Shown here piece by piece: positions 1 through 29,401 of a stretch of 51,910 nucleotides of DNA (position 1 is its first letter; each line of letters begins with the position of its first letter). The DNA comes from Pseudomonadota bacterium (lineage in GTDB: Bacteria > Pseudomonadota > Gammaproteobacteria > Steroidobacterales > Steroidobacteraceae): positions 1-51,910 of the forward strand of contig JAJYFU010000009.1 in NCBI GenBank assembly GCA_021790795.1. The letters are read 5' to 3'. The position numbers were made by a program, and so were the translations under genes. The notes below the pieces were generated by a model. That model had not been told where the DNA came from. It did no database searches and worked only from the letters and a program-made list of their open reading frames with translations.

Positions 1-14
1 CAAGCTCGCGGCGA

Positions 15-455
15 TCAAAGGGTTGCCGATAGCTCGATCGCGCCAGCGACCCTCTCGACCAGCGTTCTACTTCCGTGCCCAGGATTAGCTACTTTTCGGG
101 TCCGCACGAGATGCTTACTCTCGAGCAGTGCAACATCTCGCCTAACAGCCGAAGGATCGCGCGAGAGGGCGGCGGCGAGCGTGAAGATCGCCACCGTTCT
201 TCCATCTATTTCCTTCAATATCCTGACCCGAGCCGGAGTGATCACTTCCAGGAAGTCGGCCGGATCCTCGAATGATACGGTCAGTCCCGGTTCCAGCTTC
301 TCTTCGCGATCGAGTCGTCGAGCCTGCACTCGCAGGCGGGAGAAAAAGCGATCCATCGACTCGACGCCAACGCGAATCTTGCCGACCGGGCTAGTCCTTG
401 CGGCTTTCGAGGTACTCGCGGACTTCCGTTTCGAAGCGCTTTTCGATGCTTTCAT
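15..455 (-). CDS. TumA-like antitoxin / HVO_A0114-family winged-helix DNA-binding protein
   Basis: ORF 15..545(-); likely start is the internal ATG at 455 (MKASKSASKRKS...). Core GKIRVGVESMDRFF...LEPGLTVSFEDPADFLEVITPARVRILKEI...LSRDPSAVRRDVALLESKHLV matches the HVO_A0114-type helix-turn-helix pattern from memory. Confidence 0.65.
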   Translation of the reverse strand: MKASKSASKRKSASTSKAARTSPVGKIRVGVESMDRFFSRLRVQARRLDREEKLEPGLTVSFEDPADFLEVITPARVRILKEIDGRTVAIFTLAAALSRDPSAVRRDVALLESKHLVRTRKVANPGHGSRTLVERVAGAIELSATL

Positions 456-732
456 ATGATTCGAACTCAACAGTTTCGGCTTTCCCATCAGAATGACGAT
501 GGTGGTGTCCATGCGCGTTGTCGTAGCCGAGAACCCGACCGCCATCGACGCCTATCCTGTGGGTATCAATTAGAGCGAGGGAATATCTCAGCAAGCGCCC
601 GCCGCGCGAGTAGTCCGCCTGGATTCTGACTACCACGCCGCCTTTGCGGCCCTTGGGCTTGGGATAGAACTCGTCGCGGCTCGAGCGTGCAGGATCAAGT
701 TGGTCCTCGGTATCGCGCTTGCGCCGCCCCAT
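391..732 (-). CDS. TumE-family (DUF6516-like) toxin of a toxin-antitoxin pair
   Basis: 113 aa; contains LLRYSLALIDTHRIGVDGGRVLGYDNAHGHHHRHSDGKAE, the YDN-x-HG-x-HHRH signature of TumE/DUF6516 proteins. Directly upstream of and overlapping the HVO_A0114-like antitoxin. Confidence 0.7.
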   Translation of the reverse strand: MGRRKRDTEDQLDPARSSRDEFYPKPKGRKGGVVVRIQADYSRGGRLLRYSLALIDTHRIGVDGGRVLGYDNAHGHHHRHSDGKAETVEFESYESIEKRFETEVREYLESRKD

Positions 733-869
733 AGGGTGTCAGCATATCAGGAAGGACTGAAAATATCCTATCTGACAGCGGCTGCCGTCCGGGCGGTGGC
801 AATCTGATAAATTCGTAGAAATCGCGCAGGAATATACTGATATATTTTTTAAGACAATCTGGTAAGTAA

Positions 870-1907
870 TTGGAAATAAACAGAAAAATAAGTGTCGCGC
901 CGATGATGGACTGGACGGACCGCCACTGCCGGTACTTCCTGCGCGGCTTCTCCCCCGCGACGCTGCTGTACACGGAGATGATCACCGCGGCGGCCGTCAC
1001 CCGCGGGAACACGCAGCGGCTGCTGGCATTCGATCCGGAGGAGCACCCGGTGGCGCTGCAGCTCGGCGGCAGCGATCCGGGCGAGCTGGCCACGGCGGCC
1101 CGCATCGGCGAGGCGTTCGGCTACGACGAGATCAATCTCAACTGCGGCTGCCCCAGCGATCGGGTGGCGAGCGGCGCCTTCGGGGCATGCCTGATGCGTG
1201 AGCCGCAGCGAGTGGCCGAGTGCGTGGCGGCCATGGTGGCCGCGGTGCGCATTCCCGTCACCGTCAAGATGCGCATCGGAGTCGTGAGCGGGGCGCGGCG
1301 CGAGGTGGCCGGCGCGCTGGCGGGGTTCGAGGAGGACGAATTCGCGGCCCTGCAGGCGTTCGTGGCCCTCATGCGGCGGGCCGGCAGCCAGGCGGCCATT
1401 GTGCATGCGCGCGTGGCCGTGCTCGGCGGCCTGTCGCCGAAGGAAAATCGGGAGGTGCCCCCGCTGCGCTACGCCGTGGTGCGCCGTTTGAAGGCGGCGA
1501 TGCCGGACACGCCCATCGTGCTCAACGGCGGCGTGCGCACGGTGCCGAGCGCGCTCGATGCGCTCTCCTGGTGCGACGGTGTCATGCTGGGACGCGAGGT
1601 CTATCACCGCCCGCTGTTCCTCGCGCAACTGGCCCAGGCGCTGACACCGCGGACCGTCACGCCGTCCCGGGAGGCGCTGCTGACGCGCATGGCCGGCTAT
1701 GCCGAGCGCCAGCTCGCCGCGGGCCACTCGCTCCCGGCGATCACCCGCCATATGCTGGGTTTGTATGCCGGAGAAGCCGGCGCCCGCGCGTACCGTCGAC
1801 TGATGAGCGAGGGTGCGCGCGCCCCCGGGGCGGACGCCCAGGTGATTCGTCGGGCCGCCGCATCGGCTCTCGAGGCCCGAGGCGGTGCGCACGAGCGCTC
1901 GCGCTGA
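870..1907 (+). CDS. dusA: tRNA-dihydrouridine(20/20a) synthase DusA
   Basis: SVAPMMDWTDRHCRYFLR, LQLGGSDPGELA, EINLNCGCPSDRVASGAFGACLM, VTVKMRIG motifs. Start shown is TTG at 870; the next in-frame ATG is at 903. Confidence 0.93.
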   Translation: MEINRKISVAPMMDWTDRHCRYFLRGFSPATLLYTEMITAAAVTRGNTQRLLAFDPEEHPVALQLGGSDPGELATAARIGEAFGYDEINLNCGCPSDRVASGAFGACLMREPQRVAECVAAMVAAVRIPVTVKMRIGVVSGARREVAGALAGFEEDEFAALQAFVALMRRAGSQAAIVHARVAVLGGLSPKENREVPPLRYAVVRRLKAAMPDTPIVLNGGVRTVPSALDALSWCDGVMLGREVYHRPLFLAQLAQALTPRTVTPSREALLTRMAGYAERQLAAGHSLPAITRHMLGLYAGEAGARAYRRLMSEGARAPGADAQVIRRAAASALEARGGAHERSR

Positions 1908-2006: not shown

Positions 2007-2924
2007 GTGGCCCCCCAATCGATGGGTGAGGACGTCGAACTGGCCGTATTGTTTGCGGACGTGGTCGGCTCAACCCGGCTCTACGAGCGCATGGGCGATC
2101 AGCGGGCGCGCGACATGGTTGCGTTGTGCATCGATGTCATGCGTGGCGCCACGGAGCATTGCGGCGGGACGGTGATCAAGACCATGGGTGACGAGGTCAT
2201 GGCCACTTTCCCGAGCGCCGACGCGGCGCTCAATGCCGCCGCCCAGATGCAGAAGCAGATCGCGGCGCACACACAGCTGCGCGTCGACGGCCAGCCGGTC
2301 TCGATCCGCATCGGCTGCCACTACGGCCCGGTGGTGGCGGAGAGTCAGGACATTTTCGGCTCCACGGTGCATACGGCCAACCGCATGACCAGTCAGGCCA
2401 AAGCCGGACAGATCATCACCACGGAGGCCACCGTGGGCCAGCTCACGGCCCCGTGGCGCTCCGCCTGCCGGCTGATCGACAACGCTCCGATCAAGGGCCA
2501 GCGCAACGAGGTCCCCCTGTACGAGGTGCTCTGGCAGGTCGACGACGTGACCAGCATGGTGCGCATGGTGGGGCACGACGTGGACCGCTCGCACTGCACG
2601 CGGCTGCGGCTGTGGTGGCTCGACCGCGAGCTGCTGATCGACGAGCAGCGCCCCATTCTCACCATCGGCCGGGCCGATGAGAACGATCTGGTCGTCAAGG
2701 GCAATCTGGTCTCGCGGCTGCACGCGCGCATCGAGTACGCGCGCCACAAGTTCACGCTCATCGATCACAGTACGAACGGCACGTTCGTGCGCGAGGGCGG
2801 AGGCGAGGAGGCGTTCGTGCGCCGCGATTCTCTGCAGCTCAAGGGCGGAGGGCTGATCAGCCTCGGACGCATGCCCGAGGCGGAATCCGCCCAGACCATC
2901 CGCTACGTCTGCGAGCGCGACTAA
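2007..2924 (+). CDS. Class III adenylate/guanylate cyclase with C-terminal FHA domain
   Basis: VLFADVVGSTRLYERMGD, KTMGDEVMATFPSADAAL, RIGCHYGPVVAESQDIFGSTVHTANRM (cyclase catalytic core); C-terminal ILTIGRADENDLVVKGNLVSRLHARIEY...LIDHSTNGTFV (FHA). GTG start at 2007 follows a GGGAGGA Shine-Dalgarno; ATG 2022 is the alternative. Confidence 0.88.
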   Translation: MAPQSMGEDVELAVLFADVVGSTRLYERMGDQRARDMVALCIDVMRGATEHCGGTVIKTMGDEVMATFPSADAALNAAAQMQKQIAAHTQLRVDGQPVSIRIGCHYGPVVAESQDIFGSTVHTANRMTSQAKAGQIITTEATVGQLTAPWRSACRLIDNAPIKGQRNEVPLYEVLWQVDDVTSMVRMVGHDVDRSHCTRLRLWWLDRELLIDEQRPILTIGRADENDLVVKGNLVSRLHARIEYARHKFTLIDHSTNGTFVREGGGEEAFVRRDSLQLKGGGLISLGRMPEAESAQTIRYVCERD

Positions 2925-29266: not shown

Positions 29267-29401
29267 GCGCGGCCTTTTTTGGCAATCAACCCACACGCGC
29301 ATCGCACCATCCGCAGACTGGGTGTCCCCTTGCTGCCCTCACGGGCGCAGGCGGGATGGCTGCGGAGATGCGCGGAGGCTCAACCCAACGAGGAGTTTCC
29401 C

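Follow-up and report, generated by a model that had tools for sequence, protein, structure and literature searches.

We examined the 5' end of dusA in a 51,910-nucleotide contig (JAJYFU010000009.1) of a Steroidobacteraceae genome, where the gene adjoins a toxin-antitoxin (TA) pair and carries the mark of an integrated element specific for dusA; elements of this type were reported in 2015 and 2021. The window is this entire contig, which begins at window position 1, and it comes from a fragmented assembly of 186 contigs (G000). The gene dusA lies at 870..1907 on the plus strand, and its product of 345 aa was identified as DusA by PF01207 and PRK11815 (445 bits, cut-off 269) with Pfam and NCBIfam. 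On the minus strand upstream of it are a TumE toxin gene at 391..732 (PF20126, 31.7 bits, cut-off 23.4) and a TumA-like antitoxin open reading frame (ORF) at 15..545 with a helix-turn-helix of the HVO_A0114 family (PF25212, 4.6e-11). The real start of the latter is probably the ATG near 356, just past the TumE stop. Both the TumE domain and the adjacent DNA-binding partner were found above cut-off. The predicted pair resembles the TumE-TumA superfamily (PMC10584680) in having this toxin Pfam domain beside a DNA-binding partner, but differs in that the partner matches HVO_A0114 and not a TumA model.

The region between the TA pair and dusA is AT-rich. Mean GC of the 51.9-kb window is 0.686, the lowest 100-bp value is 0.31 at 801-900, and GC of 0.40 or below is confined to one cluster at 781-930, which bears out the AT-rich stretch pointed to in the earlier note. 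Based on this profile and on alignment with the relatives G032, G006 and G026, the AT-rich right end of the element was placed at 781..902 on the plus strand, where it provides dusA with a new upstream region and start. The same note had proposed a TTG start preceded by an in-frame stop codon, and its coordinates were verified: TTG at 870-872, TAA at 867-869 directly before it and the next in-frame ATG at 903. When the AT-rich ends of relatives were aligned, the start-codon column was ATG in G020, G024 and G076, TTG in G026, G030, G071 and G023, and CTG in G066 and G014. After this column the peptide NRKISVAP is largely conserved, with many synonymous changes. Conservation of both supports translation from 870, so that TTG is a credible predicted start of dusA.

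The junction was tested against 58 genomes of the same genus (labelled G, with contigs C and loci L). Among relatives whose site is empty, the nearest is G012:C563. Beyond the core its dusA was 91.7% identical to that of the window, and the 150 nt upstream of the core were unrelated, with only 42% identity. This dusA starts with GTG, presumably the native type. A GH9 gene is found upstream of dusA in G012:C563, G007, G011, G071 and G076 (the Pfam match was tested on the G011 copy; the other copies are its homologues or were read as such), and a search for this native neighbour in our own genome did not find it. In G012 a further contig, C164, carries a dusA 5' end whose start is of the AT-rich type, beside a 397-aa integrase. 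The G012 assembly thus appears to contain the empty site as well as an occupied one.

With blastn, window 4-916 aligned to G032:C53 123684-124587 with 87.3% identity, and window 1-924 aligned to G006:C4 (the contig that also holds locus L104) with 89.2% identity. The horizontally shared unit was accordingly set at 1..924, with a left limit of homology at about 1-15 and a right limit at 916 (G032) to 924 (G006). TumE was 84-88% identical to the copies in these two genomes, and the TumA-like ORF has a homologue in both. Between G000 and G032 dusA was 70.3% identical and its downstream neighbour, a cyclase gene, 75.9%, against 87.3% for the unit. With dusA so divergent between G000 and G032, the unit, 87-89% identical to those in G032 and G006, moved horizontally. 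Homology to the unit ended at the core in both G032 and G006, with different DNA beyond: in G032 a 1167-bp VapBC unit followed by a second core and dusA, in G006 a Gp49-like/HI1420-like TA pair followed by the contig end. On the left, similarity between the two is lost around window 1-15, where G006 continues into IS66-like sequence and G032 into a GNAT-like gene (both named by reading); searches of our own genome with these neighbours gave nothing useful. In G000 the 150 nt preceding the core were 86% identical to G006 and 82% to G032, and 52% to the near relatives G071 and G076. The start codon of dusA and the codons for LEINRKISVAP lie inside this shared foreign block, and so the element supplies a new dusA 5' end; the codons up to about the core come from the element and the remainder of the gene is native.

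The insertion site is the conserved GTCGCSCCSATGATGGACTGGACCGA core in the 5' end of dusA, at which the homology breakpoints versus G012, G032 and G006 fall. In the window this att core (gtcgcgccgatgatggactggacgga) is at 894..919 on the plus strand, and it is repeated upstream of dusA in nine relatives. The extra cores are all in direct orientation, and G062 has two of them. The core-to-core distances were 4567 bp in G026, 11215 in G027, 1403 in G017, 1167 in G032, 1244 and 6261 in G062, 353 in G063, 1020 in G067, 2165 in G080 and 1399 in G060. In G026 the repeat is 57 bp long with 86% identity between the copies, and the left copy adjoins the gene that in G023 stands closest to dusA on the upstream side. 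The short units range from 353 to 2165 bp, and several of them hold only a TA pair and no integrase; in G032, G067, G060 and G017 both att sites are present with no integrase between them. The window shows one att end only.

The unit ends also carry shared motifs. To the right of the internal cores, most units have the left-end motif YCANNNRCTTR, ending 51 nt past the core start, and there is a second, looser box near +70. CTTR was present at the +51 offset in 7 of 12 sequences (p ~4e-13, corrected for the offset and ignoring relatedness of the sequences). A near reverse complement of this motif, TAAGTNNNTGR, occurs about 40 nt before the core in nine dusA right ends and two internal right ends. 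In the window it is found at 863..873 on the plus strand (taagtaattgg), overlapping the dusA start codon. We read both motifs as putative integrase-binding arm sites, and this is the likely role of the site at 863-873.

Several other observations concern the core. A partial, TGGACCGAC-like core stands about 70 nt before the full core in the right ends of G007, G032, G036, G070, G080, G065 and G069, and in right ends of another class a GCCT...AGGC palindrome takes the position of the partial core. The 353-bp unit of G063 (L154, 10012-10365) holds no ORF of at least 45 aa that passes the codon score. Locus L162 (G078:C242 20643-20693) has a core with the left-end motif away from dusA and may be a further integration site or an attP. 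The viral contig L179 (IMGVR_UViG_3300045996_000815) has the core and TAAGTNNNTGA outside dusA, with the inverted repeats CCCTGTCGG/CCGACAGGGG flanking the core, and this region is likely a phage attP.

Integrase genes were found beside the core in G012:C164, G015, G077 and the viral loci L180-L182. The G012:C164 integrase has viral relatives at 40-43% identity, in which the core is no more than about 200 bp away from the start of the integrase, and one of these viral loci runs into dusA. The integrase beside dusA in G015 matches phages DC1, BcepIL02 and H66, which are listed as carriers of dusA-type integrases (PMC4482086). Three recombinase loci of our own genome were considered as the dusA integrase. 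The one on C21 was rejected as it sits by tRNA-Thr, that on C85 is a partial frame with no link to dusA, and C102 was rejected as a contig with three recombinases. These are three consecutive tyrosine recombinase genes on a 4.3-kb contig, which may resemble a RIT element. In G026:C18 (L055, 12058-12684) a 208-aa tyrosine recombinase consisting of the catalytic domain only was found within the 4567-bp unit, near a PemK toxin and a putative antitoxin; the usual H of its HxxR box reads R or T by eye.

Taken together, the junction is real and attR-like and belongs to a dusA-specific element of known kind, and window 1-916 is very probably the part nearest to dusA of an element that was acquired horizontally and inserted at the dusA core by a dusA-specific tyrosine integrase. 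The earlier note had suggested such a dusA-proximal end with the TA module as cargo, and several lines of evidence support this: similarity to the nearest relative with an empty site breaks off sharply at the core, a 0.9-kb unit of discordant, horizontal distribution has its end at this core in two further species, nine relatives show the core in direct repeat, and integrases stand by the core in bacterial and viral contigs. We propose that a dusA-specific integrase inserted the element at the core, which would have separated dusA from its native promoter and start. The AT-rich end of the element would then give dusA a new upstream region, the TTG start (read as Met) and LEINRKISVAP. As the element supplies these, DusA should stay functional, and the rebuilt gene is presumably expressed. 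Since no sigma-70 consensus promoter was found in 700-940, we infer the promoter function of the AT-rich end from the literature: in E. coli, a dusA'-lacZ fusion with a Vibrio element was expressed from the element, more weakly than from the native sequence (PMC8409611). The TumE-TumA pair by the junction probably stabilises the element through addiction. The element would belong to a pool that includes short integrase-less units, e.g. VapBC in G032 and HigBA in G067, which may depend for movement on a related integrase acting in trans, for instance the G012:C164 enzyme, or may be what is left of larger islands.

Some results weigh against an integrated element at this position. No dusA-type integrase was found in our own assembly, which is incomplete, and no relative of the G012 integrase in our own genome at E 1e-15. 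A search for a second core in the same assembly returned the window copy only, the other matches carrying 3 mismatches. As position 1 is also the start of the contig, neither the integrase nor the far end of the window's element can be seen. Furthermore, no core is seen to the left of the TumEA unit in G032 and G006, and AT-rich dusA starts occur in about ten species, so that part of the end may be an old, vertically inherited insertion.

This last point can be extended to a rival explanation, in which the AT-rich start is the relic of an old integration inherited vertically in the clade and TumE-TumA arrived later and separately. Many species do share similar AT-rich starts despite different cargo, in G023 no cargo was found to separate such a start from the upstream gene, and the left remnant in G026 already looks like the AT-rich type. 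However, the 150 nt before the core match G006 and G032 and not the near relatives G071 and G076. Moreover, the TA genes run without a break into the AT-rich end, and this block also occurs in a species with a dusA of 70% identity. We therefore regard the old relic as unlikely. Far less probable is an assembly or binning chimera joining foreign DNA to dusA, which the fragmented assembly and the two dusA contigs of G012 might suggest, as two further assemblies have the unit ending at the same core, and the dusA frame is open across the junction, its start column being conserved. Ordinary divergence of the promoter region with a chance TA insertion and no site-specific element, which would fit our own assembly with neither integrase nor second core, is already contradicted by the exact junction and homology breakpoints at the core, the direct repeats in nine relatives, the end motif at a fixed offset and the integrases beside the core, and has next to no probability.

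Beyond the insertion of a dusA-specific element, we tentatively consider it possible that dusA serves in this genus as a docking site for a cassette-like array, of which the TumEA block of the window is one unit. Each unit would be short and non-autonomous, with a left-end box, usually one TA pair and a right end acting as replacement promoter and start for dusA, and integrases supplied in trans would insert such units in tandem. Beside dusA or an internal core we found TumE in G000 and G032, BrnTA in G007, G001 and G078, VapBC in G032 and G027, HigBA in G067, Gp49/HI1420 in G006, ParE/Phd in G068, MazE with DUF6036 in G017 and G060, and DUF6036, a putative toxin, in G062 and G063. TumE was not found in the viral contigs, and in the genome contig database it returned only G006's own contig. 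Next to cores 12 TA loci were counted in 90.6 kb, compared to 1 in 60 kb further upstream (p ~0.013 by hand with the 12 loci; ~0.07 without the putative DUF6036 loci). The count leaves out the G006 and G027 loci, which are outside the counted stretch, the loci are partly related by descent and ORFs were chosen by a simple codon score, and the enrichment is suggestive only.

Islands that target the 5' end of dusA and rebuild its start, of which the earlier note spoke, are described in PMC4482086; they replace the dusA 5' end and the first beta strand (Farrugia 2015, PMC4482086). Our junction is similar to these in its target, the dusA 5' end, in the semiconserved att repeats (21 bp in those islands, and seen here in the relatives) and in the replacement of the start and first beta strand by island DNA. 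However, the integrase is the only universal gene in those 94 islands, whereas here TumE is at the junction with no integrase visible, and several units of the relatives are too short for one. Vibrio elements of the IMEVchUSA3 type at dusA also have TA cargo (sgiAT, higAB) and include one tandem insertion, but they carry int, are mobilizable by IncC plasmids and are not TA-only units (PMC8409611). Cis-mobilizable elements (CIMEs), formed by decay and accretion (reviewed in PMC5704250), are, like several units of the relatives, integrase-less att-bounded segments stacked in tandem with other elements. They have been described from the decay of integrative and conjugative or integrative and mobilizable elements, whereas several of the present units are a TA pair alone, recurring with different TA families. 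In a limited literature search no description was found of stacked, short, TA-only, integrase-less units at dusA. The locus adds a genus whose dusA 5' end is rebuilt repeatedly by different elements, and in which minimal TA units bounded by att sites and lacking an integrase occur naturally. Such units make testable the persistence of TA pairs on their own at an att site, their mobilisation in trans, and the tolerance of a housekeeping gene to serial replacement of its promoter and N terminus.

Downstream of dusA in the window is an adenylate cyclase/FHA-like ORF (2007..2924, plus strand; named by reading), and tblastn of the relatives showed that it is kept genus-wide. The dusA-cyclase order is conserved on this side and the upstream side varies between species. 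A second dusA copy, about 60% identical and with the core changed to ATGATGGGGCGGAC, was found 12-40 kb upstream of another dusA in G032 (C53 84718-85758), G065 (C201 57944-58987) and G080 (C354 323-1357). In G030 (L066) a degenerate remnant of the dusA N-terminal part lies at about 2663-2760 in dusA orientation, 13 kb upstream of dusA. Elsewhere in the window, at 29274-29384, an ordinary t44 RNA (Rfam RF00127) was detected.
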